DNA of 37,542 nt from Bacteroidales bacterium (GTDB taxonomy: Bacteria; Bacteroidota; Bacteroidia; Bacteroidales; P3). Below, in pieces: positions 4,234 to 27,333 of this stretch. The stretch's first letter is position 1. Each line of letters starts with the position of its first letter. A program made the translations under genes and the position numbers. The stretch covers positions 1-37,542 of the forward strand of contig JAKSMO010000022.1 in the NCBI GenBank assembly GCA_024400545.1, read 5' to 3'. The notes below the pieces were generated by a model. That model had not been told where the DNA came from, did no database searches, and worked only from the letters and a program-made list of their open reading frames with translations.

Positions 4234-7200
4234 ATGGATAAATATTATCGTTTTGTTTGCCTATTTTTAACATTGTTGTGCACCGTTGGAGCCAAGGCTC
4301 AGTGCGACAATAATGCGGCCATGTGCCAGGTGCAGTTTCGTATGCACGACGATTATGGTGATGGCTGGAATGGATGCAAGGTGAATGTGTATCAAGGCGA
4401 GATACTTCGTGGTGTGGTTGAGTTGCCTACAGGGTATAATGGAGAAACCACAATCAACGTATGCGAAGGCGATTTTTCGCTTGTGTGGGTGAGTGGCAGC
4501 TATGCCTCTGAAGTGTCATTTGATGTGTATAGTTCCGACGAAGAACTGATGTTCTCGATGAGCGACTTGGATTACTATGGCACGGGTGACGTGTTGGCTT
4601 TGCTTTCTGCTGAATGCGGATCGTGTGGCAGAGTACGTGGACTGCAGTTGGTAGCGTCCACCATCAACAGTTTGCAACTGTCGTGGGAAGCCGGCGATGC
4701 AGCCGCATGGCTGTTGGAATATGGCCCTCGCGGTTTTGTGCCGGGTAGTGGTACGAGCATGGTGCTTACCACGCCCGCAGTAACCATTTCGGGGCTTGCG
4801 ACCACGCAGTATTACGATGTATATCTGCGCACAGTGTGCAGTGAGGGCGACACTAGCAGTGCCAAAAAGGTGACCTATCGTACCGCTTGTGCCACCAGTT
4901 GTCCGATCAATATTGTGATGCGTAATTTAGACAATTACAGTCGAGGTTGGTGGGGTGCGAAACTTATCATTACCAGCTCGATGGATTCCGTAGTTGTGGC
5001 GTTGGACGATAGTAGGTCGTACGATTCGATATTTGTTCCGTTGTGTCAGGATGAAGTAACGTTACAATGGCAGGGAGGCTATTCCGATTATGAATGTGCT
5101 TTTAGAGTTTATAATTATGAAGGAGAATTGCTGTGCGATTACGACGACCTTGGTGGGTTGGATATCCCCTTGTCATTTACTTTTGATCACGAATGTTCGT
5201 CCTGTGCCCGCCCGGGCGTGCCCCAACTAGTTGGCGGTAGTACCACCAGCATAGCCGTACGTTGGCAGGGAACAGCAGCCGACAGCTATAGTGTTGGCAT
5301 TGCCCCTATCTGGTCCGATAGTTATACATCATATATAGTTAACGATACTACTTTTACTTTTACCGGCCTCAATGCTGAAGAAACCTATCGCGTAGTTCTG
5401 CGCTCTATATGCGGCAGCGACACCAGTCGTGCCTCGTATGCTGAGATGAGACCGGCACCGGCATGGATTCCAACCATCCATGTGTCAAGCACCGGCACAT
5501 CGTCGGGCACGGGTGCTAGCTGGAACGATGCGGTAGAGTCGTTGCGTAGTGCCCTGGAGTTGGCTCAGGAGTATCTGCTGTTCTACAATCAGGTGCCCGA
5601 AATATGGATAGCGCGCGGACGCTATAGCGACACCGAAGATGCCGATTCCAACAACGCCATCTTCACCCTTCTGCCCGGACTGCATATCTATGGCGGACTG
5701 GAAGGTAACGAGCCCGCAGGGTATGATATGACGGGTAGAAGTTTGGACCTGAACCGCACCGAGATTTCCACTTGGCAGGACGGTACCCTCTTCTATCAGC
5801 CCGAGCCTTTCACCTCGGCCACTGCCGCAGTGATTGACGGACTGGTGCTGAGTGCCAACACTCGTTTTGCCGAACTTAAAGACTACGCCACCCTCCGCAA
5901 TTGCGAACTCACCAACGCTTGGGGCTACGATCCCGTGTTGGTGGTGGAAGCCTACAACTCTGACCCTGCCACCCAAGTGGCGTTGGATAAATGTAGAATA
6001 CAGAATTCCTCCTGCGGACAAAACGCTGTCATTCAGTTGGCACATGCCCGCATGGAGAACTGTTTGGTGGTAGAGTGTAGGTCCTCGCAGAACGTATTGC
6101 GACTGGTTGACGGAGCCATTGTATCGCACAGTGATTTTATCGACAACGTGGCCCGTATGGATAATACTATTGGTGGTATTTCCAACAATGACTACGCTGC
6201 CAACCAACTCCAAAACAGTGTCGTTTGGAGTTCGCTCGACTTTGGTCCACAGTCTTTCAGTGCCATAGGTACGGGAGTGGAAGTCTCCCATTCCGCCGTA
6301 GTTGGAGGCGCTGACGGGGTGGGCAACATCAACCTTGAGGCCAGCAATAGTGGAGCCGTTGCAGGTCGCAACTATCCCAATTTCGTATATCCCCCATTCG
6401 ATATCAGAGTCAACTCGGGTTCGGCACTGATAGATGCCGCTAGTTCCACCGTAGCCTCCGACCTTTACGGCAACCCCCGCCCCTATGGTGCGGCTCCAGA
6501 TATGGGATGCTACGAATATCAGGGTGCCGACCAATGTCCCAATACCAACGGCCTCTATGTCAGCTATAGTTACAGTTATGCAGCAGTCGTGTCGTTTGAG
6601 GCCTTTGTTGATCATAGCTATACATTGCGTTACCGTCCGCAGATTGGTGGCGAATGGACTACGCTCGACTTTACTGTAGATAGCAGCATGATTCCGTATC
6701 TTTACGGCGAAACGGGAACGGTAAGCCGGCGACTTGACAATCTTGCTGGTGCAACCCCCTATTTTGTTCAGCTCATACACCACTGCCCCTTTGGCGACAG
6801 CGACATTCTTCAGACCGAATTCACCACTGACTGTCCAAGCAATATCGGACAAGGTGAATGCGATACAGAGGTATGTCCGCTGCCTGGCGTGTTGGCATAT
6901 CCTGTAATCACTGATACTGTGATGACATTCTCCGTTGATGTGGCTCACAGACCAGTGCTCAAATATCAATATGCTGGCGGACCTGTTGCATATGTGTCCG
7001 ATTGCTCGCATATCGACAGAGACTACGCCCCTTGGGAGATAACCGCTCCGGCCTATGCCAATAGCACCTGCAATGTGTGGTTGGCTGATGTTTGCCCCAA
7101 TGGCGACACCAGCGAATGGCTGTTCCTTTCGGTGTATATACCCCCTGTGCAACTTTCGCGTATTTATGTGCGAGAGGGAGCCCAAGGCGCTGGCAATGGT

Positions 7201-10200
7201 TCGTCGTGGTACCATGCCTGCACTGATATCCATCAGGCCATCGCCCATGCCCAGACCATTTGGAATTATTTTCACACCCTCTGCGACATCTGGGTGGCCG
7301 AAGGCACCTATTATGGCGACACATTGTCCAACGCCATGCTGGATTTGAGCCATGGATGGAACATCTATGGTGGTTTTGCCGGTAACGAGCCTGATGACTT
7401 TGATCTTGACCAGCGTCGTATTGCTGACCATCCTACCATTTTGGACGGTCGTCACCAGCGCACCGTCATCAACCGCAGCTATACCAATTCTGGAGAATAT
7501 GCCACCTACAGTGGACTCATAATCCAAAATGGTTACCATGACTACGATGCCAGTGGTGTTCATGCAAACTCCCCCATCACCCTCAGCCATTGTATAGTGC
7601 GAAATAACCAGTCGAACTCCAACTCCGGTGGTGGTGTGTATATGTCGGAAGGCCGTATGTACAACTGTTTGATAGCCGATAATACCTCCAACTTCTATGG
7701 AGGCGCCTATCTCGTCAGTACCAGTGTTGACCATTGCACCTTTGCCGGCAACAGAGCCAGCAACTATAGTGCGCTCCGTTATATTGGCAGCAATTCCGAC
7801 ACCATTACTAACTCCATCATTTGGGGCAATGTAAATACCGCAGGCAGCGGTGCACAGGTGTATATAACCGGAGGCATATTACAGCATAATGCGTCAAAAG
7901 ATTTTTTGGGTGGTTCCGACAACATTCTTCTTGAGGATATCAATGCAGGCACTACCGAAGGCAACTTTGTTGCTTTTGCCGACCCGCAGAATGGCGATTA
8001 TCGCCTTACCTCATCCTCGGTATGTATCAATAAGGCCGCAACCTACCGTACCTATCCCTACGACCTTGCCGGCAATGTCCGCGTATTTGCCAATGTGGCT
8101 GATTTAGGTTGTTATGAATATAGCGGCCAGACCTACTGTGTGCCTCCCTATCATGTATGGGTAGAGGAAGTGTCGGCGACCTCAGCCTTGCTTCGTTGGA
8201 GCGGCTATACCGACGACGTGGTGATAGAAATTTCTCCTGCCGACGAAAACGCATGGACAGCCTATACCGCCCATGGTAGCCAATATGCGCTGCTGGGTCT
8301 TGAATCCGAGCATGAATACCAGGTGCGCATCAAGTCGGTTTGCGGCGGTAGTCACAGCCTCTATTCCCAGCCGATGATATTCTCCACCGTCTGTCCTTCG
8401 TCCAACCAGTTTGTCTTTGGCAATCCCTCCAACTACCAGACAACCTATTCTTCCGAACTACCGTTACATCCCTACTATCGTTACTCTCACACCCAGACCA
8501 TCATCACCGCCGACGAACTGTCTGGCTTGGCCATGACAATCCCCTCCATCAGCTACCAGTATATCCACAACAGCACCATCACTCGCAACATCAACATCTA
8601 TATGGCTCACACAACTGCCGAGTCGTTCTCAAGCAGCTTCATGCGGGTGCCTGCTGCCGACTATACCCTTGTGTATTCGGGCAATGTGACTTTTAGTCGC
8701 GAAAACCTGTGGACCGACATACCTCTCGATTCACCCTTTGATTATAATGGTGTTGACAACCTTGCCATAGCCGTAATCGACAACACGGGTTCCTATTTCA
8801 GCTCTGGCAACTATTTTGCCACCCATTACACCACTACAAATAAGAGCGTATCGCAGTACAGCGACAATTATGCCTACTCGCTCAGTGATGTAACTTCCAC
8901 CAATCTGCGCAACTACCGCAGCAACATGCAAATAACTTTGCCATGCGACACATCGGCTTGCGTACAACCCAATATCCTTCCAGTGGAAGTTACCGACCAA
9001 TTGATTAAATTAATATGCGTTTCAACCAGCGACTACGAGATCCAGTACCGTCAGAGCGGAAGCGAGGATTATATAGCCCTTGTGCCGAGTGATACTATTA
9101 CGCTCACTGGACTGTTGCAGAACACCACATATGTGTTCCGTGCACGCACTATCTGCTCCAATGCCGATACTTCGGTATGGACCACACTCACTGTAGCAAC
9201 CCAACTGCGCCGTGCCAGCCATTTCTATGTGAAACCAGTATCCTGTGGCTCGGGCGACGGTACCTCGTGGGACAATGCCATGAGCGACATCAACCTGGCC
9301 ATAGTAAATGCCGAGGCGGTGTGGAATACCTACCACACACGAGCCCAGATTTGGGTGGCCGAAGGTACCTATTATGGCAATACTGCAGCCGAGAGCGCCT
9401 TTACGGTGCGTAAAGGCGTGGATGTGTATGGTGGTTTTGTGGGCAACGAACCCGAAGACTACGACCTGAGCTTACGAGATTGGACCACCCATCGCACTAT
9501 TCTCGACGGACAGCATCAACATAGAGTATTAGGTCAGGACGACTATTATTACTTCGATACCATCCGTTGGGACGGATTTGTCATCCAGCACGGTTCATCC
9601 ACTTTCGGTGGCGGTGTTTATCTCCTTAATGGTACAACCCTGTCCAACAGCATTATTACCGACTGTGAGGCATCTTCCGCCGGTGGAGCTTATGTGTATG
9701 GCGGCCGACTAGAAAACTGCCGTATTGAGAACAATCTGGCTCATGTTTCATCCGGTGGTGCCCAAATCAATAACGCAACCGTGGTAAACTGTACCTTCGT
9801 CAACGACACAGCTTCCGACTACAGTGCCATGACTCTTTATGGTTCCACTGCCGTCAACACCCTTATCGCCAACAACTCATCCTACAACAGTACGATAGGC
9901 CTCTCATCTGGCGATACCCTAATCAACTGCGTCATCGTTGCCAACCATAGCGTCATTGCCACCCCTCAAAACAACCCCTTCAGCAGCTACTCCAATGTCC
10001 CGGTTATCAACAGCATTGTATGGGGCAACCAAAGCGATGCAATATCCATGGCCACCGAGCCTCGATACAATGTCGCATTTGACCATTGCGCCATCCAGGG
10101 TCCCACCCCCACCGATGCGATGAACAACACCGTTATCCTCTCCGCATCCAACGACGACGGCCTGTTCAGCCCCCGCTTCGTGCGTCCTTCCTCAGCTGCT

Positions 10201-13200
10201 GGAATGGGCCATGCCGATGGCGATTGGACCCTCCAACCCAATTCCGTGCTCATCGATAGGGGCACCCGTGCCGTCGATGCCACCCGATTCTCGGCCACCG
10301 ACCTTGCAGGCAATGCCCGACTCCAGGGCGAAAAAGTCGATATTGGCTGTTACGAGACCACTGCATCAGGGACTACAGCACCTACCTTTGCCGACCATAT
10401 TATATACGTGACTCCCACCGGAGCTGGCCTGCGTGATGGTACATCTTGGACCAATGCTATGAGTGACATCCAGGAGGCCAGCCGTATGGCTAACCTCTAC
10501 GATAGTATGGCTGTGTGGGTGGCTGCTGGCACCTACTACGGCGATACCGCAAGCGACCGAGCCTTCAACATTGCCTCTGGTGTCCAACTTTATGGTGGCT
10601 TTGTAGGCAGCGAACCTGCCAATTATGATATTACTCTTCGTAATTGTGACACCCATCCTACCATCCTTGATGGTGCCGGACAGCGCGCCGTGCTCAACAT
10701 TTACTCCAGCACTTCGTCGGCCAATCGCACCCATGTTGACGGATTCGTTATCCAAAATGGCTACAGCACCCATCTGAGTGGCGTTGGTGTGACCATGGGT
10801 TGCTACTCAAGCATTAGCAACTGCGTGATACGTAACAATGTGGTTAATTCCGCTTTGCCATATGGTATCACAGGTGTGGCTTTGGCACTCAGCGAACAAA
10901 GCTACTATGTTGACGGTAACGACATCTTTATGGTTGACCGTTGCCGTATAGAAAACAACGTTGGTCAAAGTTCCGTGAATTCAGGCCTGGTGCAAGGAAT
11001 GATATCATTCGGCTATGGTATTATGAGCAATACCCTGGTGGCCAACAACGAGTGTCAGAACTATGGCGTAATGAAATCGTTCGGCTCGGCACAAATTCAA
11101 AATTGCACCTTTGTTGCCAACCAAACACACTCGGGCAATAGCTTCGATTGCTCATACTATGGCAATACCTTCCGCAACTGTATTGTTTGGAACAACCTCG
11201 CGCCCATAGTGGATGAATACACCACCATCTCCGACCAACTGTTTCAGCATTGCGCTATCGACGAAGTGGTGCCCGGCGTTGACAACCTTGTCATTTCCAG
11301 CACCAACGATGAGGGCGACATTCTGGCTCCAGGTTTTGTAGCACCCACAGCAGGCATAGGCAGCCGCTATCAAAGTGGCGATTGGCATTTGCGCCAAGGC
11401 TCCATCTGTGTGGGACGAGGCACTGATATGCTGCCTGTTAATCAGCAAGACCTTGACGGCAACCCACGCGTGCAGGCCGATGGTATCGACCTTGGATGCT
11501 ACGAGTCTGTTCATCAGTCGAGAGCGCTTCCTCAAGTTGGCGAAATCATCTATGTGACTCAGAATGGCACTGGCGACGGCTCCAGTTGGAACAATGCCCT
11601 TGGCAGTCTCACCACAGCGTTGAAACTGTCTAGCTTCAGTCCTGCACGCCCCAGCATTTGGGTGGCCGGCGGCGTTTACTATGGCGATACCATTCGTGAT
11701 CAGGCATTCGTAATGGTTGACGGTGTGAACGTATATGGTAGCATGCAGGGTGATGAGCCTCCCACTTTCGACCCCGATAGTCGCTACGCCGACGGATCTG
11801 CCTTTGTGCCCACTACTATCCTCGACGGTATGCATCGCCACCGTGTACTCTCCCAACCTAAACCATTCAGAACCCCAACCCGTTGGGATGGTTTTGAAAT
11901 CCGCAATGGTAAGAACATTGTTCCCAACAACATGTATAGAACTGTTGAAGGCGTAGGTGTTTACCTGCAGAATAACGGTCAGCTATACAATAGCGTAGTT
12001 CACGACAACACAGTTGATTCAGTATATTATGCAAATGGTATTGGCGTATATGCCACCTATGGCGCGAAGGTTGAAGGCTGCGATATTTGGGGCAACGGCC
12101 CGCAAGAAGGCAGTTCTGTCACTATTGCTGGTGGAGGTTTGGCTCTGATAAACTCATCTGTCCATAACAGCCATGTGCACCACAACCACGGCACCTCGGG
12201 CGGTGGTATCCATGCTCAAGGAGGATTGATTGTCAACACCGTTGTGGATAATAATGAAGCAGAATCTGGCGCAGGCTTGTACTTGGAACGGTCTGAGGCT
12301 ACAAACATCACCGCAAGCCAGAACACCGCAAGCCAGAATGGTGGCGGTGTGTATGTCTCTTATAACAACACACTTGCTGGTGGCCTTGTGGCAAACAACC
12401 GTACCCATGGCATCGATGGTGCAGGTATATATTCGCTATACGACAACGATATCTACAACTACACCATTGTGGATAACTTCAGCGAAATATCCAGCTATTA
12501 CACCAGCTACCCCTCTGTGGCTATAGCAGGTTCGGCCTCGCTCTACAACAGTGTGCTTTGGGGCAACCGCTGCGACGCTCAATATATAAGAGAACAACGG
12601 CTGCTTACTCTCAATGGATTTGGAAGTGGCATCACTTTCGACCATTGTGCTATTGAAGGCGACTCGCTGGTAGATGGTATTATGTTGCTTGCCACCGATA
12701 ATTTTGGCTCCGATACCACGCTCAACTACCCGCAGTTTGTATCGGCCGAAAATGCCGACTACCGTATTTCTTCGCTCTCCGCCCTCTACAACCGAGGCGG
12801 TAGTGTCGTGCCTCCAACCCTGACTTCCGACCTTGCCGGCCAGCAACGTGTGTTTGCCGACACTATCGATATTGGCTGTTATGAATATGATGGTCAAGAA
12901 ATCTGCTATCCGATGTCTCGTTTCGGAATTGTAATGCGTGCTGGTACCGACGTGCTTTTTGGTTGGTCTGCTCGCAATCAGGCTCCCGACAGCCTGGAGT
13001 TCTGGTATCGTGCCGAGGGCGAGATTGCATGGACCATCGTTCCGCTTGTTTCGGGCACAACCACCCATTTCCTCCGCCAACTGGCACCTCAAACCACCTA
13101 TGAGGCAAAAGTGCGTACTCTTTGTGGCAACGAGGCAGGCCAGATTTTCACCCGCACGGTCACTTTCCATACCGACTGCTCCCATGGTCAGGACACGGTG

Positions 13201-19200: not shown

Positions 19201-20289
19201 GCTCCCGGCGATACTGTCACACAGCAGATCCAGGCCAATATTAACGGTATGCCCGAAGGCGACTACTACCTCTTTGTCAAGACTGATGTCCGCAATATGT
19301 TCAATGAAGACAACGAGGAGAACAACGAGGCTATATCCGCCTCCACATTCGCGCTTCGTTTGCGCACCCTGCCTTTCGGCGTTACCATTTACGACACCTT
19401 GGTCAATGGTCAGATCAGCGACTATAAGCTGCCCGTTGACACTGTTCAGCTGCAAACGGTACGCATCAGTGTTTCCTCACCCGATTCGCTTCGTGGTGCC
19501 GTCAACAACATATATGTGGCCAACAATACTATTGCCAACAATCTCAGCTATCACCTTTCCACCGTTGCTCAGAATGCTGGCAACCCCGAGCTCTACATTC
19601 CTGCCACTAAGGGCGACTACTATGGCGTGAGCATCTATGGCACCACACCCGTCGCCTCCCAGCAGATAGTGGGTCTCAGAGCCGATATCCTGCCCTTTGA
19701 ACTGCATAGTGTCAGCCCCAATTTTGGTGGCAACGACGGCGATGTGACAGTCAAGCTTACCGGCTCTCATTTCAGGCCCGACATGAAAGTGTGGATTGAG
19801 CGCAATGGCGACACCCTCTATGCCGACCGTTTCACTTTCGTTAACTACTATGAGTCGTTTGCTCATTTCAATCTTTTGGGTGCCGATACCGGTCGTTATT
19901 CGGTAGGTGTGCTCAACTATTGCGAGGGCGAAGGCGCACTCAGCAATGCCTTTACGGTAGTGCCGCCCTCGCCGCTAAGCCTGGGCTACACCATTGTGCC
20001 GCCTAGTGCTCCTCGTGGCAATAGGATTATCAGTCTTATGCTAGAATTTGGCAACATAGGCAACACCGATATCCGCGATGCTGTGCTCGAACTCGAGTCG
20101 GTAGGTGGCTGCCCCATCTCCCTCACTCCCGAGGGGCTCCGACAGGGTACCACAATGCTGCGGTTGCCCCTCTCCATTGAAGGCGAGCCCCAGGGACTCC
20201 TCAGACCCGGCAGCCAAGGCACAATCACTATCTACTGCCAATCCTCGGGTAATCTGGTATTCTCTATCAAAGAGGTGAATGGCTTATAG
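4234..20289 (+). CDS. Giant secreted modular protein: FN3, six beta-helix modules, nine CARDB-like repeats, IPT-like domain
   Basis: A 5351-residue protein. I place the start at ATG 4234 (MDKYYRFVCLFLTLLCTVGA, signal peptide ending near AKAQ) rather than at TTG 4228. Order: two DDYGDGWNG-type beta domains (about residues 25-125 and 225-335), each followed by an FN3 domain; six right-handed beta-helix modules starting near residues 415, 977, 1663, 2056, 2438 and 3263. Modules open with a form of YVTPTGAGDGSSWNNA and close with a form of IDLGCYEY. FN3 domains follow modules 1, 2, 5 and 6, and a duplicated T9SS-protein beta domain follows the FN3 after modules 2 and 5. Nine CARDB-like repeats span about 3843-5040, then a PPC-like and an IPT-like domain (about 5155-5245). 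It ends without a recognisable T9SS sorting domain. Likely an extracellular adhesin or scaffold; substrate unknown. Confidence 0.93.
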   Translation: MDKYYRFVCLFLTLLCTVGAKAQCDNNAAMCQVQFRMHDDYGDGWNGCKVNVYQGEILRGVVELPTGYNGETTINVCEGDFSLVWVSGSYASEVSFDVYSSDEELMFSMSDLDYYGTGDVLALLSAECGSCGRVRGLQLVASTINSLQLSWEAGDAAAWLLEYGPRGFVPGSGTSMVLTTPAVTISGLATTQYYDVYLRTVCSEGDTSSAKKVTYRTACATSCPINIVMRNLDNYSRGWWGAKLIITSSMDSVVVALDDSRSYDSIFVPLCQDEVTLQWQGGYSDYECAFRVYNYEGELLCDYDDLGGLDIPLSFTFDHECSSCARPGVPQLVGGSTTSIAVRWQGTAADSYSVGIAPIWSDSYTSYIVNDTTFTFTGLNAEETYRVVLRSICGSDTSRASYAEMRPAPAWIPTIHVSSTGTSSGTGASWNDAVESLRSALELAQEYLLFYNQVPEIWIARGRYSDTEDADSNNAIFTLLPGLHIYGGLEGNEPAGYDMTGRSLDLNRTEISTWQDGTLFYQPEPFTSATAAVIDGLVLSANTRFAELKDYATLRNCELTNAWGYDPVLVVEAYNSDPATQVALDKCRIQNSSCGQNAVIQLAHARMENCLVVECRSSQNVLRLVDGAIVSHSDFIDNVARMDNTIGGISNNDYAANQLQNSVVWSSLDFGPQSFSAIGTGVEVSHSAVVGGADGVGNINLEASNSGAVAGRNYPNFVYPPFDIRVNSGSALIDAASSTVASDLYGNPRPYGAAPDMGCYEYQGADQCPNTNGLYVSYSYSYAAVVSFEAFVDHSYTLRYRPQIGGEWTTLDFTVDSSMIPYLYGETGTVSRRLDNLAGATPYFVQLIHHCPFGDSDILQTEFTTDCPSNIGQGECDTEVCPLPGVLAYPVITDTVMTFSVDVAHRPVLKYQYAGGPVAYVSDCSHIDRDYAPWEITAPAYANSTCNVWLADVCPNGDTSEWLFLSVYIPPVQLSRIYVREGAQGAGNGSSWYHACTDIHQAIAHAQTIWNYFHTLCDIWVAEGTYYGDTLSNAMLDLSHGWNIYGGFAGNEPDDFDLDQRRIADHPTILDGRHQRTVINRSYTNSGEYATYSGLIIQNGYHDYDASGVHANSPITLSHCIVRNNQSNSNSGGGVYMSEGRMYNCLIADNTSNFYGGAYLVSTSVDHCTFAGNRASNYSALRYIGSNSDTITNSIIWGNVNTAGSGAQVYITGGILQHNASKDFLGGSDNILLEDINAGTTEGNFVAFADPQNGDYRLTSSSVCINKAATYRTYPYDLAGNVRVFANVADLGCYEYSGQTYCVPPYHVWVEEVSATSALLRWSGYTDDVVIEISPADENAWTAYTAHGSQYALLGLESEHEYQVRIKSVCGGSHSLYSQPMIFSTVCPSSNQFVFGNPSNYQTTYSSELPLHPYYRYSHTQTIITADELSGLAMTIPSISYQYIHNSTITRNINIYMAHTTAESFSSSFMRVPAADYTLVYSGNVTFSRENLWTDIPLDSPFDYNGVDNLAIAVIDNTGSYFSSGNYFATHYTTTNKSVSQYSDNYAYSLSDVTSTNLRNYRSNMQITLPCDTSACVQPNILPVEVTDQLIKLICVSTSDYEIQYRQSGSEDYIALVPSDTITLTGLLQNTTYVFRARTICSNADTSVWTTLTVATQLRRASHFYVKPVSCGSGDGTSWDNAMSDINLAIVNAEAVWNTYHTRAQIWVAEGTYYGNTAAESAFTVRKGVDVYGGFVGNEPEDYDLSLRDWTTHRTILDGQHQHRVLGQDDYYYFDTIRWDGFVIQHGSSTFGGGVYLLNGTTLSNSIITDCEASSAGGAYVYGGRLENCRIENNLAHVSSGGAQINNATVVNCTFVNDTASDYSAMTLYGSTAVNTLIANNSSYNSTIGLSSGDTLINCVIVANHSVIATPQNNPFSSYSNVPVINSIVWGNQSDAISMATEPRYNVAFDHCAIQGPTPTDAMNNTVILSASNDDGLFSPRFVRPSSAAGMGHADGDWTLQPNSVLIDRGTRAVDATRFSATDLAGNARLQGEKVDIGCYETTASGTTAPTFADHIIYVTPTGAGLRDGTSWTNAMSDIQEASRMANLYDSMAVWVAAGTYYGDTASDRAFNIASGVQLYGGFVGSEPANYDITLRNCDTHPTILDGAGQRAVLNIYSSTSSANRTHVDGFVIQNGYSTHLSGVGVTMGCYSSISNCVIRNNVVNSALPYGITGVALALSEQSYYVDGNDIFMVDRCRIENNVGQSSVNSGLVQGMISFGYGIMSNTLVANNECQNYGVMKSFGSAQIQNCTFVANQTHSGNSFDCSYYGNTFRNCIVWNNLAPIVDEYTTISDQLFQHCAIDEVVPGVDNLVISSTNDEGDILAPGFVAPTAGIGSRYQSGDWHLRQGSICVGRGTDMLPVNQQDLDGNPRVQADGIDLGCYESVHQSRALPQVGEIIYVTQNGTGDGSSWNNALGSLTTALKLSSFSPARPSIWVAGGVYYGDTIRDQAFVMVDGVNVYGSMQGDEPPTFDPDSRYADGSAFVPTTILDGMHRHRVLSQPKPFRTPTRWDGFEIRNGKNIVPNNMYRTVEGVGVYLQNNGQLYNSVVHDNTVDSVYYANGIGVYATYGAKVEGCDIWGNGPQEGSSVTIAGGGLALINSSVHNSHVHHNHGTSGGGIHAQGGLIVNTVVDNNEAESGAGLYLERSEATNITASQNTASQNGGGVYVSYNNTLAGGLVANNRTHGIDGAGIYSLYDNDIYNYTIVDNFSEISSYYTSYPSVAIAGSASLYNSVLWGNRCDAQYIREQRLLTLNGFGSGITFDHCAIEGDSLVDGIMLLATDNFGSDTTLNYPQFVSAENADYRISSLSALYNRGGSVVPPTLTSDLAGQQRVFADTIDIGCYEYDGQEICYPMSRFGIVMRAGTDVLFGWSARNQAPDSLEFWYRAEGEIAWTIVPLVSGTTTHFLRQLAPQTTYEAKVRTLCGNEAGQIFTRTVTFHTDCSHGQDTVFDVLAGMETGISSFPFVSSYSGGDQLCYTQQIYPASVMQGFVGLVDSLYFRVTEDNTRSVSLQVYMGLTDKESFLHSGDYVDPLQLTLVYDGLLGRNEDGYRGVELSQPFIYDGSSNLVLAVKQNQTITREADFYNHSNLFDTVGHSITYYSSYEINLRRLTENSYLSNHLSEIRLVSHHCQEDSCAAPLLAISEITQNSVTFEWAADSSVTFQYRRFDEPTFTTVQPSRIDGTSLTNLIMGTNYVARLRRQCPYGSTDWYEIPFSTRAARFNRLYVTPQGAGLGDGSSWSNAVRGVRVAQRMADNIHQEFDIMPEIWVAQGTYYGDTNSVDAFELIEGMNLYGGFAGNEPADFDLSQRDIAAHPTILDANNINRVLVQKYDFNTLTVCDGFILQNGYGVDISGVGAVVRGNGALINCIVRNNTLIAHEFDPRAVGVLALSYGQPAQIINTSITNNYSSSTRYGRVVKGGGLYAREALVANCKIIDNSAYRAGGLYAESNVKIFNTVIAANHATEMGGAYLERNDTLANVTIALNTSDNFAGGVYSEWNSVIYNSIVWGNKMGYMVDNYSSGTEIYSSAVEGGMPNGSNIITLSSMNDGASSSEYYVRFVDPQRRNFALHSASNCVDAGDTTLAYWPTDILGGSRIQGATIDLGAYESETQFDCLSPINLRTTGVSGTSLSLAWSPRGTETQWVVVMANQNDETTITSYDTTLTVTGLTVGNEYTFYVKAFCGNTYSFNSPQLTVNTLCDTLSLQPLSPVTLVSPIDSSAVLGRTVDLEWVSVPEATSYDLYIWRTDMPEPSTPNMSGLQMNILGNVSLPQFEDGKYYNWKVVAWNECISRSSQVGTFLANPLADLHVSDLSFSSAMANQSITITYTVTNDGNGATPPGATWNDNFWIVVGIGIRMFDGSDSRGYLGEVPNLRGLGPGESYTNTVTFTIPPHLMGNYFLFALTDMPDAFEIYYAERDNDTLNLPVNYTPSVTGVPYNYLRGSSHGFDNGVREYVENDNFFYKQISILPPPSPDLQVTHVSHPTTTFSNQLVPFTWTVTNNGSAEASLGRWVDYLYLQAIEGPLDMLRAICIDSVRHFDRLPVGESYTVNTLTHIPIQMFGSYYVHVVTDKRNEAFEGIYETNNEASSGQVIDITMAPVADLVVSNIGFADTVSPLCRYPLSSTITNVGSGVTNEPQWLDDAYLSPTPYLDPSTAVLLGSHAYSHRTRYLCYEHNGSETYCLGNYDKGVLSPDSSYEQFDYGDRYSDRVYKFYYAGRHYDKDERYENLYATIPRYVGGDYYIIVRADSQDDVFEYDAEDNNDLAKPIFIANPDLVVTGVVYDSVVEVNRRSQVSAFVKNIGQGRSYSFVYNRLMLDNDTVYAGIWLDLAPGDSQAISFTFTQQCALGNQGHFRIQTNVSYKNSDTIYEYRAPFNNLSDVYTYHVLQPDLLVGAINYPDTVWSGLTAMVDFQIQNNGELKVDSLGFPVAYNIYISNRPDQLIADDAHHVGSGSRRLNLMPGQSGTVSQQVSIPNGYNGVYYLHVVLDPDNWICENNETNNAGYGTLPMRVNLSPYPDLVVTQAIMPDTVSLGQNVSFSFSIANQGTAPIVGNLSTRVFMSQSAVFNQQEAKPVATLHRTVDMAVGDTISAVVAGLIPNNLMVGNYYFYVFVDYPDEHYEYTFENNNIYRSSRRFVKSYPLDLAVDSIVGPSVVEWGQVVHYTMYISNRSVVRSLNYFSNQLYTSVEGSIISQDTVGKAVSLIEYLDPGSSSSVTFTFKVPYGMPNQLFLIGVCDNSRSNPDIDYTNNQIAIPITINPVATVDYQASDFHVVDSAVAGQSVRVAYQVRNVSDAEVLPSSWYRFDHFFLSGDSSYSVGDVYIDMAIMGGLRPGEVEYDTVEVRLPLPYQGDMNLLVYVNGSRNHFETNLDNNITSTPIHITMPLPGDLMVSDVTVPDTVVSGFPAQFSWNVVNVGVNNISGRGLGSLAYISDDDQFDVTDKLIGSVITNNNINLAPGDTVTQQIQANINGMPEGDYYLFVKTDVRNMFNEDNEENNEAISASTFALRLRTLPFGVTIYDTLVNGQISDYKLPVDTVQLQTVRISVSSPDSLRGAVNNIYVANNTIANNLSYHLSTVAQNAGNPELYIPATKGDYYGVSIYGTTPVASQQIVGLRADILPFELHSVSPNFGGNDGDVTVKLTGSHFRPDMKVWIERNGDTLYADRFTFVNYYESFAHFNLLGADTGRYSVGVLNYCEGEGALSNAFTVVPPSPLSLGYTIVPPSAPRGNRIISLMLEFGNIGNTDIRDAVLELESVGGCPISLTPEGLRQGTTMLRLPLSIEGEPQGLLRPGSQGTITIYCQSSGNLVFSIKEVNGL

Positions 20290-20351
20290 TGTTGAAATGA
20301 TGTATCAAATCAACAAATCAACGGAATCAACATTGATCACAAATCACAAAT

Positions 20352-21542
20352 ATGAAACGAATAATTATAACTTTATTGCTTATCATTGAGGTCTTTGCGG
20401 TGCGGGCTCAGTTTGCCGGCGAGGATAAGGTGATACTCCGCAAGGCGGACAATAGCCAGGCCACCACCATCGGCACACCCGACCCCAATGCCCAGAACTG
20501 CTACAAATGGACAGGTCCTCACATCGAGGGCGACCCCAACCAACCCGTCATCACGGTGCATCCCATCGCTGAGTTCGAAACCTACTTTGTTAGGCGTATC
20601 ACCAAGAATGGTGTTGAAGAGGACATGGTGTCGGTTACTGTGGAAGACACCATCCGCATCATTTCCGTAACTCCAAAGCATAAATGTTATGCTGAAGGAG
20701 AGTCGCTGCAGGCCTATGATTTCGACATCAAAACCTATCCCGAAGGCTATGGCAACCTGGCCGAGTTCACACCCAGCACAGCCAAATGCCAGGAAAGGCG
20801 CAGCCAGTCCACGATGCCCTTGCAGGTTTCTATCTCGCGCAATGGGCATGTGTCACGCAGTTCCACCAGTATCAAGGTTATCAACGACGGAGCTGTGTCG
20901 CCCAATATCGGGCTGTCGGCCGATATCAAAAAGGTTGTAGAGCTTTTGAAAGACGGACAAAAATTAGCAGACTTGCTCAATGGCGTAGCATCGAAAGCCG
21001 ATCCTAAGACAAAAGTTCCGGGTCTCCCTTGCCAATCCGATATTGAATCCAGTTGGGGTACGGTGGCTATCACACCCAAGAACATCTGCTGCGAACACGA
21101 TCCTTATGCAGGTGCCACTTTGGCTTTTGGAGGCTTATCGGGAAAGCTTTATGTGAAATGTAAGGCGTTTAGTTGGGGCATACCAGGTGCCGGTTCGATT
21201 GATTTACTCCTCTCCTTTGAGATTTCGGGTGGTTTGGGACCTACCGAAACCACTATTTATCCCGGTGCCATGTCGTGCGGTTCGTTTTGCGTGCCTGTCT
21301 TCGTAGGCTATTCTGTGGGTGGAGGCGTTGGTGTATCTGCCTTGGGCGATCTTATTGCGGCCGATATTATGGTAGTGGGTTCGGCCACCGCTACGGCCAC
21401 TTGGTGCCCGTGGGGGGATAACAAAGCCACCCTGTCGCTCCTGGCCAAGGTTGAACTAGTAGGCACGGTAACGCTCCTGTCCTTTATCCAAAAATCTGTT
21501 TCATACCCATTTTTTAGCAAAGAAGCCAGTGTGACTTTTTAA
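20352..21542 (+). CDS. Secreted or outer-membrane protein of unknown function with glycine-rich beta C-terminus
   Basis: A 396-residue protein with a clear signal peptide ([20 protein letters not shown]). Residues about 25-175 look like Ig-type beta domains. A short helical part follows ([19 protein letters not shown]). From about residue 235 to the end the sequence alternates small and hydrophobic residues with many glycines ([20 protein letters not shown]) and finishes ASVTF. A terminal phenylalanine after amphipathic strands is what outer-membrane barrels show, but the strand count is not secure and several cysteines lie in the region. It is not a recognisable PorP/SprF protein and has no T9SS sorting domain. 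It sits 62 bases after the giant gene and 61 bases before the next, so it is probably one subunit of the same block. Confidence 0.85.
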
Positions 21543-21603
21543 TAATTTGTTGATTACAACAAATCAACTGTTCCACAAATCAACATATACAACCCTTATC
21601 GTG

Positions 21604-22950
21604 ATGAAAAAAACTATATTAATATCGCTTTTCTTTCTGGTGTCGGCTATGGCTTTTGCACAAACGCATCGTTTCCCAGCCTATAGCACCCAGGAGCAGC
21701 AGGTGGCTCTTGATGTCTCCTCCGATTCCAATACCTATCTTGTTCCCGATGGTGGGCACACCATTTGCCCCAATGTGGCTTTGTATAGCTTCACCGGTTG
21801 CATCCCTCAGTCGGGAGGTATGATAGCCCTAACTGGCGGTTCGCAGAATGCTGCCACCACCAATACCCCTCCCGCCGTTATCTGCCGCGCGTTGCAGGCC
21901 TATCAGTCGGCCTCGCTCACGGCCCTTACAGCTCTCTATCGTACGCAGGATGCTGCTACCATCTCCTCCATCCTTGCTCCCGACAGCGTACGTTTTCCCT
22001 ATTGGGCTTATGTGTCGGCCATCGACAGCATCGAATATGTGCTCAGCTATAATCAGGGGTCCAAGGTTATTGCCTATGTGCGCTATTATCGCGACACACT
22101 GCGGCTCCTCTCCACCTACGTCCTCACCCAGGTTTCGGGCCAGTGGAAACTTATGGTGGATAGTATTGGCTCTACCATGGATGATAATCTGGCCATTTAT
22201 CTCGATATGCATAGTACTACCGACCTTAGTGCTCCTGCCGATATCGACGGCGACGGCATACCCAATGCCTCCGACAACTGTCCCTGCACTGCCAATCCCG
22301 ACCAGGCCGATTCCGATCACGACGGCATAGGCGACGCCTGCGACAACTGCCCCCTCAAGTATAATCCCCAGCAGGAGGATTTTGATCATGATGGCATAGG
22401 TGATGTGTGCGACAACTGTCCCCTCAAGCCCAACCCCTTCCAAGAGGATACCGACCACGATAATATTGGCGACTCTTGCGACAACTGCATCACCGTGGTC
22501 AATCCCCGTCAGTACGATTTCGACTTCGACTCCATTGGCGACGAATGCGACCCTGATATCGATGGCGACGACATACCCAATTCCATCGATCCCGACCAGG
22601 ATGGCGACGACGTGTTGGATTCCATTGATAATTGCCCTATGCATTTCAACCCCTCGCAGGATGATTCTGATGGCGATGGCATCGGCGATCCTTGCGACAA
22701 CTGTCCGCTGAGCTACAATCCCGACCAAACCGACACTGATGGTGACGGCATAGGCGACGCCTGCGACGACGATGCTGACGGCGACGGCGTGCCCGACGAT
22801 ATCGACAATTGCAAATCAACCTACAATCCCGATCAAACCGACACCGACTGCGATGGTATTGGCGATGCGTGCGACCCCGATATCGACGGCGACGGTGTGC
22901 CCAACGAACTCGACAACCGCCCCCTGTTCTTTAATCCCGACCAGGACTAA
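21604..22950 (+). CDS. Secreted thrombospondin type 3 repeat protein, calcium-binding
   Basis: 448 residues from ATG 21604; the frame is open further upstream, but [20 protein letters not shown] is a standard signal peptide and fixes the start. Residues about 21-210 form a domain of unknown type, perhaps NTF2-like (low confidence). Residues about 213-448 are roughly eight thrombospondin type 3 units of the form [15 protein letters not shown], whose aspartates bind calcium and whose cysteines pair. In many Bacteroidota proteins such units act as a rigid linker before a sorting domain. Here the chain stops at NPDQD, just where another DxDxDG unit would start, with no sorting domain, and the last unit has DNRP instead of DNCP. 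It lies 33 bases before the 1449-residue gene, so calcium-stabilised association with that neighbour is plausible. Confidence 0.92.
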
Positions 22951-22983
22951 TTCAACAAAACAACAACCATCAATTCAACAACC

Positions 22984-25900
22984 ATGATGAAGAATATATT
23001 CTTGTGCCTGATGTTTCTGATGCCTTTGGGGCTTACGGCACAAATCACCAGCAAAATGCTCACCGAGGAGTCGTGCAACCCCGGTGGCGACGGCTCGGCT
23101 ACTGTAATCCTCCCGGCCGACCTCGTGCCACTTACCACTGTTGAGTGGTCCACTCCCAAAGGAACAAAGCTTACCGGGCGGACTATCACCGGTATGAAGG
23201 CTGGTGCTTATAGTGTGGTCGTTTATTCCAACGATTGTCACAAGGCCATCTATCAGGATGTGGTGCTGATTGAGCGCAACGAAGGTTGCCGCATCAATGT
23301 GTCAATCGGCGTTTCCTCGCCCTCGGTGCCCTGCAATACACAGCCTTCGGCCACCCTCACAGCCACTGCCCATGGCGGTGTGGGCAATCTTAGCTATTCC
23401 TGGGGCAGCAACACCATGTCCACAGCCTCGTCCGGCACTTATGGCGTTACCGTTACCGACTCTGCGGGCAATGTGGGCAGTGCCAAGGTGTCGGTCAGCC
23501 TCACCATGGTGCGATGCTCCGAGGACCCCAACGAGATTGATGGTCCGCTGGGCTACGAGTCGGCCCGCTATGTGTCTGCCGCCTCGCCTATGCGTTATAA
23601 GATTATGTTTGAAAACGACCCCAATTTCGCCTTTGCTCCTGCTTCTCGCGTAAGGGTCACCTATCCCATCCCGCCCCAGCACAATATTGCCAGCGTGCGT
23701 CTCGCCGATTTTGGGTTCGGCAGTTTTGTATTCAACGTTCCCGCCGGAACAACTAATTATACTAAGCGTCTTGATGTTTCCGACTCGCTGGGTGTGTGGG
23801 TGGACGTTACTGCCGGTATCGATGCCCTCAACAATCAGCTCTTTTGGAATTTCCAAAGCGTTGACCCAGCCACAGGTTTTGAGCCTGCCAACTCCCAGTT
23901 GGGTTTCTTGCTAGTTAACGACAGCCTTGGTCATGGCGAGGGCTATGTTGCTTTCTCCATCACCCCCAAATCATCCGTGGCCAGTGCCGACACAGTGGCT
24001 GCAGTGGCCGAGATTGTATTTGACGACAACAACTCCATCAATACCAATGTATGGGTCAACACTTTCGATGCCGTGGCTCCCACCTCTACTCTTGCCGCAC
24101 TGATCGATGTGACCGATTCCACTGCCGCACGCTTCACCTTCACTGCTACCGACGACCCCCAGGGCTGCGGTGTGGATAATGTGGAACTCTTGGTGTCTAT
24201 CGACGATGCCCCCTACACCTCGGTGGGCTATTACTCGCCATCTGACACGGTGGGCTACCGCATGGAAGAAGGCCACCTTTACCGCTTCATTTCACGAGCC
24301 ACCGACCATGTGGGAAACCAAGAGCCCCTCAAGTCGCAGGCCGACACTTCGTTTAATTACAACACTGCTCCTTTCGACCTTATCCTTTCCTATGCCGGCT
24401 TTGCCGAAAATGCGCCTGTAGGCACCTTGATCGGCACCCTCTCCACAGTCGATAACGATGTCACCCTTCCCTTCGTTTACGACCTTGTGTCCGGCTCGGG
24501 TTCCGACCACAACCACTTGTTCCGCATCAGTGGCAACAAGCTCCTCACCAACGCCTCTTTTAGCTGTACCGGAGTATTCGAATATTCTGTCCGCATCCGC
24601 ACCACCGATATTACGGGTCTTTCTTTCGAAAAAGAATTCATCATCCAGTGCATTCAGGAAAACTACCCCTACAGCATCACCTACAACCAGGGCATCTGTC
24701 AGGGCTCGTCCTATACCTTTGGCAGCCGCTTGCTCGACTCCACGGGAGTATATACCGATTCCCTCCTTACCGTCCGCGGTTGCGATAGCATTGTCACCAT
24801 CAACCTCACGGTGCACCCCACCTATCACTACAACCAAACCCAGCACATCTGCGAGGGCCAGTCATTCAGTTGGATAGGTCACGATATCACCAACGATACG
24901 CTCACCTCCGACATTTATACTTTTACCGACAACCTCCGCACTCAGCAGGGTTGCGACAGCCTTTTCGGCCTCACCCTCCATGTGCACCCCAACTATTCCA
25001 CCAGCCAGGAGGCAGTGATTTGCGACAATATGGGCTATACCTGGCTGGACCACGGCTATAGTCCCATCTATCGTCCTGCCGGCAGCCATATTATTTACGA
25101 CAGTGTGCGCAGCACCTTCGGCTGCGACAGCGTGTTTGTTCTTGCCCTCACCGTCAATCCCACCCATTCCCAGGTAGAGTCGGTCACCGCTTGCGACAGC
25201 TACACCTGGCATGGTACCACCTATACCGCTTCCACCACCGAGCCCACAGTCGTCAATCCCAATATTTATGGTTGCGACTCCGTCCGACATCTTCTCCTTA
25301 CCATCAACCCCAGCTCACACAACGTATCCGTGCAGCAGGCTTGTGACAGCTATTCATGGCACAGCGTTGCCCACACCGTGGGTGGCACCTACACTTATGA
25401 TTATACCAACAATGCCGGTTGCGCCAGCACCGACACCCTCCACCTCACCGTCAACTATAGCACCACAGGCATAGAGTCGATTACCGCTTGCGATGCCTAC
25501 ACCTGGCACGGCACCCCCTATGTGGCTTCCACCAACGAGCCTATCTATCACACTACCAATGCTGCGGGTTGCGACTCCACCGTCACCCTCCACCTCACCA
25601 TCAACAGCAGCACCCATCTTGTCGATACCCTTTCAGCCTGCGACAGCTATACCTGGCATGGCACCGCCTACACCGCCACCAGCACCTACACCTATCCCTA
25701 CACCAACGCCGTAGGATGTGCCAGTGTTGATACTTTGCGCCTAACGGTAAATCCCAGCACCCACAATTCCTTCACCATCGATGCTTGTGAAAACTACACC
25801 TGGCATGGCAATAATTACGCTACTTCAGGCCTCTACACCCACAACTACCTCAACACCTTTGGTTGTGCCAGCACCGATACCCTCCACCTTGCCATCAGCA

Positions 25901-27333
25901 ACCATATCGATACCACCTATCACATAGTGGCTTGCGATGGCTATAACTGGAATGGTCAGCAATACACCACCTCCGGTGTCTATACCTTCGACCATAGTAC
26001 GCAAGGGTCGGCATGCACCAATGTAGATACCCTCTACCTCACAATCAACGCCAGCACCACCATTGTTGACAACGTGGTGGCCTGCGATGCCTACACTTGG
26101 CATGGCACCACTTATACCACTTCCACCACCACGCCCACCTTCTCTGCTACCAATGCTGCAGGCTGCGATTCCATAGTCTCGCTCCACCTCACCATCAACA
26201 ATAGCACTTCCGGCACCGATGTGCAGACCGCTTGCGACAGCTACACCTGGCACGGCAACACCTACACCGCATCGGCCACCGATACCTATGCTACAACCAA
26301 TGCCGCCGGCTGCGACTCCACGGCCACGCTGCTGCTCACAATTAATTACAGTTCAACCTCCACCGAAGCGCAGACCGCTTGCGACAGCTACACTTGGAAC
26401 GGCACCACCTACACTGCATCGGCTACCGATACCTACACCACCACCAATGCTGCCGGCTGCGACTCCACGGCCACGCTGCTCCTTACAATTAATTACAGTT
26501 CAACCTCCACCGAAGCGCAGACCGCTTGCGACAGCTACACTTGGAACGGCACCACCTACACTGCCTCCACTACCGACACTTATGTCACCACCAATGCCGC
26601 CGGCTGCGACTCCACGGCCACTTTGACCCTCACGGTCAACTACAGCAGCACGGGTGTTGATAGTCAGGTGGCTTGCGACTCGTACACCTGGCATGGGGTA
26701 GAATACACCGCCTCCACCACCGAACCCACCTTTACTACGCAGAATGCTGCCGGATGCGACTCCACCGTCACCCTCCACCTCACCGTCAATTATAGCACTT
26801 CGGCCATTGATGAGCAGGTGGCTTGCGACAGCTACACCTGGCATGGTGTAGAATACACCGCCTCCACCACCGAGCCCACCTACACCACGCAGAACGCTGC
26901 CGGCTGCGACTCTACCGTCACCCTGCACCTCACCGTCAACTATAGCGTGCACGAGGTCATCGTTGATTCGGCCGTGGGCACCTACGAGTGGAATGGCGTC
27001 ACCTATACCGAGAGTGGCGAATACACCTACACCGGAGTCACCTCCGAAGGTTGCGATAGTGTTGTAGTGCTCCGCCTCACCATCCTCCAGCCCCAGGGCA
27101 TCAACGATGTACTGTTGCAGCAAGTGAGCGTATATCCCAATCCCACATCGGGCAAACTCACTATTGGTGCTGCGGGAGTGCTTCGTGTTGAGATATTCGA
27201 TTACACCGGTCGTATTGTAGCCACCTATGTTGGTGCCGACCAATTCGACATTTCCCATCTTTCAGCCGGCACTTACACCTTGCGCATCACCCTGCCGCAA
27301 GGCAACATCATCCGTCGAGTTATCAAACGATAG
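22984..27333 (+). CDS. Large T9SS-secreted protein: SprB-like repeat, DUF7619-like domain, 16 tandem repeats, type-A sorting domain
   Basis: 1449 residues with signal peptide MMKNIFLCLMFLMPLGLTAQ; the ATG at 22987 is an equally possible start. Domains in order: an SprB-like beta repeat (about 118-165), a DUF7619-like domain (about 180-367, DPNEIDGPLGYE and FENDPNFAFAP), an Ig-like domain (to about 456), a cadherin-like domain (about 460-556), sixteen tandem repeats (about 557-1366) of the type ACDSYTWHGTTYTAS then GCDSTVTLHLTVN, and a T9SS type-A sorting domain (about 1371-1449, VSVYPNPTSGKLTIG and LSAGTYTLRITL). The protein should cross the outer membrane by the T9SS, be cleaved at the sorting domain and be anchored to the surface. 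It is the only member of the four-gene block with this signal. Repeats 11-13 are nearly identical in DNA. Confidence 0.95.
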   Translation: MMKNIFLCLMFLMPLGLTAQITSKMLTEESCNPGGDGSATVILPADLVPLTTVEWSTPKGTKLTGRTITGMKAGAYSVVVYSNDCHKAIYQDVVLIERNEGCRINVSIGVSSPSVPCNTQPSATLTATAHGGVGNLSYSWGSNTMSTASSGTYGVTVTDSAGNVGSAKVSVSLTMVRCSEDPNEIDGPLGYESARYVSAASPMRYKIMFENDPNFAFAPASRVRVTYPIPPQHNIASVRLADFGFGSFVFNVPAGTTNYTKRLDVSDSLGVWVDVTAGIDALNNQLFWNFQSVDPATGFEPANSQLGFLLVNDSLGHGEGYVAFSITPKSSVASADTVAAVAEIVFDDNNSINTNVWVNTFDAVAPTSTLAALIDVTDSTAARFTFTATDDPQGCGVDNVELLVSIDDAPYTSVGYYSPSDTVGYRMEEGHLYRFISRATDHVGNQEPLKSQADTSFNYNTAPFDLILSYAGFAENAPVGTLIGTLSTVDNDVTLPFVYDLVSGSGSDHNHLFRISGNKLLTNASFSCTGVFEYSVRIRTTDITGLSFEKEFIIQCIQENYPYSITYNQGICQGSSYTFGSRLLDSTGVYTDSLLTVRGCDSIVTINLTVHPTYHYNQTQHICEGQSFSWIGHDITNDTLTSDIYTFTDNLRTQQGCDSLFGLTLHVHPNYSTSQEAVICDNMGYTWLDHGYSPIYRPAGSHIIYDSVRSTFGCDSVFVLALTVNPTHSQVESVTACDSYTWHGTTYTASTTEPTVVNPNIYGCDSVRHLLLTINPSSHNVSVQQACDSYSWHSVAHTVGGTYTYDYTNNAGCASTDTLHLTVNYSTTGIESITACDAYTWHGTPYVASTNEPIYHTTNAAGCDSTVTLHLTINSSTHLVDTLSACDSYTWHGTAYTATSTYTYPYTNAVGCASVDTLRLTVNPSTHNSFTIDACENYTWHGNNYATSGLYTHNYLNTFGCASTDTLHLAISNHIDTTYHIVACDGYNWNGQQYTTSGVYTFDHSTQGSACTNVDTLYLTINASTTIVDNVVACDAYTWHGTTYTTSTTTPTFSATNAAGCDSIVSLHLTINNSTSGTDVQTACDSYTWHGNTYTASATDTYATTNAAGCDSTATLLLTINYSSTSTEAQTACDSYTWNGTTYTASATDTYTTTNAAGCDSTATLLLTINYSSTSTEAQTACDSYTWNGTTYTASTTDTYVTTNAAGCDSTATLTLTVNYSSTGVDSQVACDSYTWHGVEYTASTTEPTFTTQNAAGCDSTVTLHLTVNYSTSAIDEQVACDSYTWHGVEYTASTTEPTYTTQNAAGCDSTVTLHLTVNYSVHEVIVDSAVGTYEWNGVTYTESGEYTYTGVTSEGCDSVVVLRLTILQPQGINDVLLQQVSVYPNPTSGKLTIGAAGVLRVEIFDYTGRIVATYVGADQFDISHLSAGTYTLRITLPQGNIIRRVIKR
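25183..27078 (+). repeat. Thirteen in-frame tandem repeats of about 147-150 bp
   Basis: These are the regular copies (numbers 4-16) of the repeat in the 1449-residue protein; three longer, more divergent copies precede them. Each encodes 48-50 residues with a paired-cysteine pattern (ACDSYTW near the start, GCDS near the middle) that copies 5, 7, 8, 9 and 16 break in part. Copies starting near 26341 and 26488 are exactly 147 bases apart and share about 77 identical bases from ATTAATTACAGTTCAACC onward, which points to recent duplication or gene conversion. Confidence 0.92.

Follow-up and report, generated by a model that had tools for sequence, protein, structure and literature searches.

Do four consecutive genes for secreted proteins, here called g1 to g4, encode one giant surface protein that has been divided into subunits? 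The question is raised by a 37,542-nt window (the whole stretch of DNA analysed) of a gut bacterium, in which all four lie on one strand; their coordinates were re-checked (Table 1). Comparison with related genomes makes it probable, at roughly 0.6, that g1-g4 together form a T9SS surface complex whose chains all rely on a single sorting domain.

Results

Table 1. Features of the window (positions counted from its first letter).
Feature	Position	Strand	Description and basis
g1	4234..20289	+	5351 aa; CARDB repeats preceded by fn3 and beta-helix-like modules; lacks a sorting domain
g1C	19357..20286	+	C-terminal ~310 aa of g1; profile region from alignments A4, A5
g2	20352..21542	+	396 aa; putative Ig-like N-terminal part, Cys/Gly-rich C-terminal part
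g3	21604..22950	+	448 aa; uncharacterised N-terminal domain, then TSP3 repeats
g4	22984..27333	+	1449 aa; sole subunit with T9SS sorting domain
DUF7619 domain (PF24595) of g4	23515..24081	+	family alignment A6; Pfam match residues 317-359
CDSYTWHG-type repeats of g4	25186..27093	+	sequence; limits approximate, by eye
Por_Secre_tail / TIGR04183 type A sorting domain of g4	27130..27324	+	Pfam, NCBIfam
Bacteroidetes-type -7 element TANNTTTG (TANNTTTGC pattern) before g1	4107..4115	+	pattern match; candidate promoter, weak
Strong hairpin 3' of g4	27354..27385	+	folding; possible terminator

The original prediction placed the four genes in one direction, 33-62 bases apart, each with a signal peptide, and this was borne out: the gaps are 62 bp (g1-g2), 61 bp (g2-g3) and 33 bp (g3-g4), and the N-termini are signal-peptide-like as judged by eye, not by SignalP (...AKAQ, ...VRAQ, ...AFAQ and ...LTAQ, respectively). 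The listed ORF of g3 begins at 21547 and its signal peptide at the ATG at 21604; an in-frame TTG lies at 4228, upstream of the g1 start. Pfam found CARDB in g1, TSP3 repeats of the calcium-binding type in g3, and DUF7619, as predicted for the 1449-residue protein, in g4, the only one with Por_Secre_tail. The proposed CARDB/IPT-type architecture at the end of g1 stands for CARDB; Pfam listed no IPT/TIG domain there. No family was found for g2. The search of solved structures gave weak titin Ig matches for g1C, weak Ig matches for g2 (E 0.18 and up), calmodulin matches for g3 that arise from its TSP3 end, and no match for DUF7619.

The three upstream proteins had been said to lack sorting signals, and we agree: the sorting model of NCBIfam matched g4 (TIGR04183/PF18962) and none of g2, g3 and the last 1382 aa of g1, and Pfam gave no sorting match in g1-g3. 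The host genome encodes the T9SS machine, with SprA (2330 bits) and PorU (930 bits) both over their cut-offs. Among related loci, sorting models matched 42 of 50 last-gene tails and none of the 58 g1 tails or the 70 middle-gene tails; the split loci scanned have one sorting domain per gene set. TIGR04183 had no match in 8 of the 50 last genes; by eye, the tails of three last genes (L126, L139 and L157) seem non-standard. A home-made rule for Sec signals was passed by 52/58 last genes, 66/70 middle genes of more than 200 aa and 14/16 uncut g1 (a further 42 g1 are cut). That the only export tag sits on the last piece points to assembly of the pieces and their joint exit from the cell.

Furthermore, the genome itself served as a control. 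It has 42 other sorting-domain places, of which 40 were fetched (C79 and C53:9-155 were left out) and 36 could be assessed, considering the next upstream gene only. By eye, a secreted gene lacking a sorting domain stands immediately upstream in about 8 of the 36 (L186, L191, L197, L200, L202, L204, L208 and L209; two look like lipoproteins). Simple adjacency is thus weak evidence.

The consensus of the Bacteroidetes -7 element, TANNTTTGC, has no match in the three gaps between g1 and g4. Its match before g1 says little, because the window holds 10 matches vs 5.3 expected. Of the sigma-70-like sites in the region, 7 vs 7.5 expected, one overlaps the g1-g2 gap. On these pattern scans, independent promoters, the other sign that would have spoken against the prediction, may still exist. 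Of the single strong terminator predicted after g4, the hairpin was recovered (-25.6 kcal/mol for the 66 nt folded, z -6.4 vs shuffles); its role as terminator was not, the consensus scan leaving out this hairpin, which has no T run. That scan lists 27716-27734 and several sites inside g2 and g4, 9 in all vs 5.3 expected.

Subsequently, we followed the genes through related genomes. The order g1-g2-g3-g4 is kept in all five same-genus relatives found (two g1 and two g4 are cut by contig ends), hence the lack of conservation that would have spoken against the prediction did not occur. None of the flanking ORFs matches those of the window in the four relatives with flanks on the contig, and g2 identity is only 22-37%. 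In an order-wide sample started from g1C, this domain is linked to DUF7619 in 18/18 loci, window included, and a second sample started from g1C gave 17/17 further places on contigs that continue. The preserved order at such low g2 identity, together with the 18/18 linkage, puts the arrangement beyond chance. The order-wide g4 search covered 100 of 247 genomes and served only to find DUF7619 places, several of those lacking a g1C match being left out (e.g. G386, G356, G343 and G258); many of its weaker matches are generic N-terminal Ig-like repeats. Successive genes in relatives are close (median gap 19 bp; 126 of 134 gaps at most 150 bp). The identities of g1C and DUF7619 correlate over 75 loci with an r of 0.87 that owes partly to shared ancestry, and the nearest neighbours of the two domains coincide in only 43 of the 75.

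The Rosetta-stone search for single-chain fusions was positive. Of the best 80 DUF7619 relatives, 16 carry g1C and DUF7619 on a single ORF, 58 have them in separate genes and 6 lack g1C, five of these running off the contig. The split layout also occurs in Dyadobacter sediminis (L123) and Siphonobacter (L141), which can be cultured. In the window g1C ends g1, a point beyond which the fused relatives continue. In 4/4 fused close relatives (L104, L105, L107 and L109) one chain covers g1, its alignment reaching residue 5347-5348 of 5351, followed by g4 from residue 12-20, approximately the mature start of g4. The chains of L104 and L105 finish in a sorting domain and those of L107 and L109 are cut; g2 and g3 were not found in these four genomes. 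A distant single chain, L245, has the order of the window (g1C, TSP3, DUF7619, sorting domain). Profiles of g2 and of the g3 N-terminal domain matched none of 11 fused chains tested and neither L245 nor L246. The nearest fused relatives look like re-fusions, since the tree places them within a clade of split loci. In the more distant, phylum sample most places have single chains (16 of 19). A home-made sorting profile matches 7 of these 16, does not match 8, all from one distant family, and one is cut; this protein type is therefore not always type A T9SS cargo. At the level of sequence, g1-g4 correspond to a divided version of the g1C-DUF7619 single chain, save for g2 and the N-terminal domain of g3.

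Moreover, the slot between g1 and DUF7619 varies in content. At some related loci it holds Rhs proteins (14/14 scanned), and at other loci peptidases fused to the last gene; comparison of the loci shows the middle slot to be exchangeable. TIGR02542 (TANFOR) was absent from the models listed for g2-g4, the C-terminal 1382 aa of g1 and two middle proteins of L074, and g2 was not found in phage records. A peptidase C25 guessed by eye in L081 and L125 was dropped, as Pfam listed SprB only for L125. No motif is common to the tails of the middle proteins (not one column reaches 90% conservation); many g3 finish at their own TSP3 repeats.

Discussion

The core of the proposed assembly (g1 end, TSP3, DUF7619 and sorting domain) would correspond to one continuous polypeptide of other Bacteroidota. 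Regarding binding between the chains, joint export, anchoring and function, we infer that Sec takes every chain across the inner membrane, and that in the periplasm the end of g1 may dock onto the N-terminal Ig-like domains of g4, at the point of their fusion in relatives; g2 and g3, the TSP3 protein, would be kept in between. PorV/SprA would recognise the sole sorting domain, that of g4, so that the complex exits as one, and PorU would join g4 to the surface, thereby holding g1-g3 non-covalently. The slot between g1 and DUF7619 would be a cargo position, taken elsewhere by Rhs proteins or metallopeptidases. Chances look about even for the broader proposal that hetero-oligomers assembled beforehand leave through the T9SS on one sorting domain: a widespread chassis of g1 (CARDB end) and DUF7619 anchor would carry exchangeable sorting-less cargo, including TSP3 proteins and Rhs polymorphic toxin-like proteins, and at other loci peptidases would be fused to the anchor.

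Other explanations were weighed. If a T9SS signal had gone unrecognised in each of g1, g2 and g3, in g1 the conserved C-terminal domain, the proteins would be exported separately but could come together once at the surface. The end of g1 can be recognised throughout the 58 split loci and lies at the very C-terminus like known sorting domains, and the seemingly non-standard last-gene tails suggest that unknown tail types may exist. We nevertheless regard this as unlikely: in single chains g1C is internal, with L104, L105, L245 and others finishing in a standard sorting domain, and the middle-protein tails have no common motif, many g3 finishing at their TSP3 repeats. Equally improbable in our judgement is mere co-expression, the upstream proteins staying periplasmic or leaving by vesicles or another route with no complex formed. 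Their missing sorting domains would fit, as would the unrelated secreted genes preceding sorting-domain genes in the same genome and the distant family of single chains unmatched by the sorting profile; a sorting-less endoglucanase of another Bacteroidetes species is abundant outside the cell, with vesicles suggested (PMC6247017). Co-expression, however, leaves aside that relatives have g1 and g4 covalently joined, and that g1C is linked to DUF7619 throughout both samples. Linkage and fusion also rule out chance adjacency. Division of one gene by assembly or sequence error could apply to L121 (the same place as L075), where g1 lies in two frames; for the window it is ruled out for practical purposes, since every one of the genes starts separately, with a signal-like N-terminus and a spacer of its own, and many independent genomes show these same breaks.

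Should several chains depend on a single tag, the T9SS must pass complexes, and inventories counting only tagged proteins miss substrates; hetero-oligomer export would then be a T9SS substrate class overlooked by sorting-domain searches. The T9SS cargo of human pathogens is described, in the part of the source consulted, as invariably having its own sorting domain (PMC8545088). The recurrent changes between single-chain and multi-chain forms, whose junctions are exact, offer ready tests of the contacts between subunits, and the Rhs variants hint at how Bacteroidota may deliver such cargo.

The original prediction knew of no described system with this layout. A full-text literature search found no genetic split of one surface protein sharing one sorting domain, nor did the literature examined hold a precedent for joint T9SS export of a 5351-aa partner; the claim needs softening all the same, as the gingipain complexes, and the Rhs or TANFOR genes that neighbour T9SS genes, come near it in concept. 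In the RgpA/Kgp gingipain complexes of Porphyromonas gingivalis, chains from T9SS cargo are non-covalently held at the surface (PMC5445135, in the section drawn on), an arrangement proposed for g1-g4; the gingipains, however, are one polypeptide fragmented later, whereas g1-g4 are separate genes with their own signal peptides. TANFOR polymorphic toxins of Bacteroidetes have signal peptides, neighbourhoods enriched in SprB and sorting-domain genes, and a hypothesised export by the T9SS (PMC7073777). They differ in that no TANFOR model matched the g1-g4 proteins scanned, and the consulted part of that article describes no g1C/DUF7619 frame or fusion test. In Apibacter, Rhs genes stand beside type A sorting-domain genes, as in our 14 related loci; the passages available describe adjacency only and mention neither a CARDB partner nor a single-chain counterpart nor a shared signal (PMC8125069). 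One signal serves a multi-chain complex in Tat hitchhiker export and in piggyback import into peroxisomes, machines different from the T9SS, for which the excerpt used reports no case (PMC9251779). Near relatives too are the single-chain CARDB-g1C-DUF7619 proteins of Bacteroidota described above (e.g. L082, L083, L104 and L245), which are one polypeptide vs two to four, show no g2 or g3 N-terminal match (11 tested), and have the same domains in the same order.

The gene cluster and its conservation

The four consecutive same-strand genes g1-g4, read by the original prediction as one giant surface protein split into subunits, lie at the positions it had assigned, with the short spacers it described (62, 61 and 33 bp), and the T9SS type A sorting domain (Por_Secre_tail/TIGR04183) is indeed restricted to g4. 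Of the strong terminator claimed 3' of g4 a strong hairpin was found, which a terminator consensus scan does not list. Neighbours with an assigned family are housekeeping-like both upstream (NRDD, a Fer4_12/radical SAM gene) and downstream (arginine deiminase-family, TMEM260-like, ATP synthase A chain, PGK and radical SAM genes); no family was assigned to a 183-aa ORF adjoining g1. The genome encodes SprA and PorU and holds 43 Por_Secre_tail places at E ≤0.001 (the window's counted), 40 of them above the cut-off. Because about 8 of 36 of its sorting-domain genes, judged by eye, also follow a secreted gene lacking the domain, adjacency by itself is weak evidence.

Features of the window and of loci from relatives (L-numbers)
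Feature	Positions	Product (aa)	Content
g1	4234-20289	5351	fn3 and beta-helix-like modules, CARDB repeats, C-terminal ~310 aa (g1C)
g1/g2 gap	20290-20351		several AAATCAAC-like words
g2	20352-21542	396	no family in Pfam or NCBIfam
g2/g3 gap	21543-21603		several AAATCAAC-like words
g3	21604-22950	448	N-terminal domain without known family, then TSP3 repeats
g4	22984-27333	1449	DUF7619, CDSYTWHG-type repeats, sorting domain
L094	7635-7976	114	sole ORF between g1 and g3; g2 seemingly broken or absent; g3 and g4 start both present
L151 (Saprospiraceae contig)	11542-13492		g2 and g3 homologues behind the DUF7619 gene, not before
L019 (genome G124)	11900-16000		type I restriction-modification hsdM/hsdS-looking genes (by eye), few kb behind cluster
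L102, last gene	4682-12472		Por_Secre_tail-like match inside the protein, well ahead of DUF7619 (residues 254-320; 26.9 bits against a cut-off of 27)

Among 149 same-family genomes, g2 was present in six (the window's own included), all of one genus. The gene order proved conserved: g1C-g2-g3-g4 on one strand recurred in all five others, with two g1 and two g4 cut by contig ends and the window's own flanks short; in G124, g3 was masked by an overlapping ORF in one view and seen in others. No flanking ORFs matching the window's were found in the four relatives whose contigs include flanks. From the same order and the lack of matching flanks, g1-g4 are a unit, patchy in occurrence and situated at differing genomic places. 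Aligned identity of these five relatives to the window was 53-59% for g1C, 50-66% for the N-terminal part of g4, 31-51% for that of g3 and 22-37% for g2.

Split and single-chain layouts

The Rosetta-stone search for single-chain fusions was positive, with g1C and DUF7619 in one ORF across three samples. The g1C profile matched 14 of 247 genomes of the order at 18 loci (19 rows, of which two belong to a single locus), and DUF7619 stood in cis at all 18, the window counted; six have four genes (window counted; in L075 g1 is spread over two frames), four have two genes and eight one ORF. Searched from g1C, a phylum sample gave 19 places besides the window in 13 of 296 genomes: 16 with one ORF, one with two genes and two where the contig ends before any visible DUF7619 (in one of these, L244, the ORF stops just short of the contig end). 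A scan of genome contigs begun from DUF7619, with the best 80 of 431 relatives retained, is a biased sample because its seed systems had been picked for g1C, and the two g1C-side searches serve as its check; it yielded 16 loci with one ORF, 58 with separate genes and six without g1C (five run off the contig; L169 is a 4.7-kb contig). Zero, one or two ORFs were listed between the separate genes at 13, 14 and 31 loci, the count for L111 being one too low because an overlapping ORF hid g3. DUF7619 places without a g1C match also exist, as found in a g4 search of the order. Identities of g1C and DUF7619 correlate at 0.87 over 75 loci, shared ancestry included, and nearest neighbours by the two domains agree in 43 of 75.

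Four fused chains from Bacteroidales MAGs (L104, L105, L107, L109) match window g1 to residue 5347-5348 of 5351 and, after a short linker, g4 from residue 12-20, approximately its mature start; L104 and L105 end in the sorting domain, and L107 and L109 are cut. Searches of their genomes, run without a positive control, found no g2 or g3. In the midpoint-rooted DUF7619 tree of 81 rows these four form a clade (99/97) within the window-type set of 27 rows (97/92), and the single-chain state needs 3 changes versus a shuffle average of 14.8 (0 of 500 shuffles as low). The nested clade and the few changes argue that switches between one chain and several occurred more than once, and the four look like re-fusions. 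The distant single chain L245 runs from g1C through TSP3 repeats and DUF7619 to the sorting domain, which places the TSP3 part of window g3; neither g2 nor the g3 N-terminal domain had a match in L245 or in 11 fused chains.

Middle proteins longer than 1200 aa carry RHS repeats (14 of 14) and DUF6531 (13 of 14). Behind five of these 14 lies a small ORF (140-185 aa, no signal peptide), as would be expected for immunity proteins; two were scanned and gave no family. L139, L141, L142, L143 and L154, ordered g1 - Rhs protein - small ORF - DUF7619, hold candidate T9SS-linked toxin-immunity pairs. Among the N-terminal regions of 17 last genes at loci without upstream g2/g3, six matched M4 peptidase, five M23, two RHS and one M12B. 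Given RHS in middle genes and peptidase or RHS in these N-termini, the position between g1 and DUF7619 is an exchangeable slot that can be filled by g2 plus g3, by Rhs or by a peptidase, encoded either separately or in fusion with the last gene.

Distribution of the sorting domain

At the split loci of the best 80 of 431 DUF7619 relatives, an NCBIfam scan of the last 160 aa per protein found the sorting model in none of 58 g1 tails and none of 70 middle-gene tails (of 76; six small ORFs left out), and TIGR04183 in 42 of the 50 last-gene tails that remained once eight truncated last genes had been set aside. The scan itself does not name the eight non-matching last genes; by a home-made profile and by eye, those of L093 and L101 have unidentified bases near the end and those of L126, L139, L144, L151 and L157 other tails. 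The DUF7619 proteins of L126 and L139 (Spirosoma) end, by eye, in a W..GRIP..gd-type tail, possibly another kind of T9SS tail, and the last gene of L157 in a dockerin-like Asp-rich one; none matches the home-made sorting profile. Most chains have a signal-peptide-like start (home-made rule).

In the phylum sample, which has 16 single chains, the home-made sorting profile matched seven and one is cut; the remaining eight (L231, L234, L235, L237, L238, L239, L241, L242), all of one distant family, have no match and count against a simple one-tag picture. Seven of these share, by eye, a G.V.GDV(N/D)GSW-type tail.

Proposed assembly and known systems

In the simplest account, Sec-exported chains would form an assembly with one sorting domain; we infer binding between the chains, their joint export and a role of g2 and g3. 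With its beta-helix, CARDB and TSP3 modules, the assembly may serve in adhesion or in plant or mucus glycan binding in rumen or gut; rumen and gut MAGs make up most of the nearest named relatives in the DUF7619 scan (best 80 of 431).

The full-text literature within reach (which leaves out preprints and most subscription papers), including passages of PMC7073777, PMC10994853, PMC9251779, PMC6247017, PMC8125069, PMC5445135 and PMC8545088, yielded neither an account of the g1-DUF7619 system nor one of a sorting domain common to several gene products. TANFOR toxins (PMC7073777) and Apibacter Rhs genes (PMC8125069) are recorded adjoining sorting-domain genes, and gingipain complexes consist of pieces cleaved from a single polypeptide and held together non-covalently at the surface (PMC5445135).
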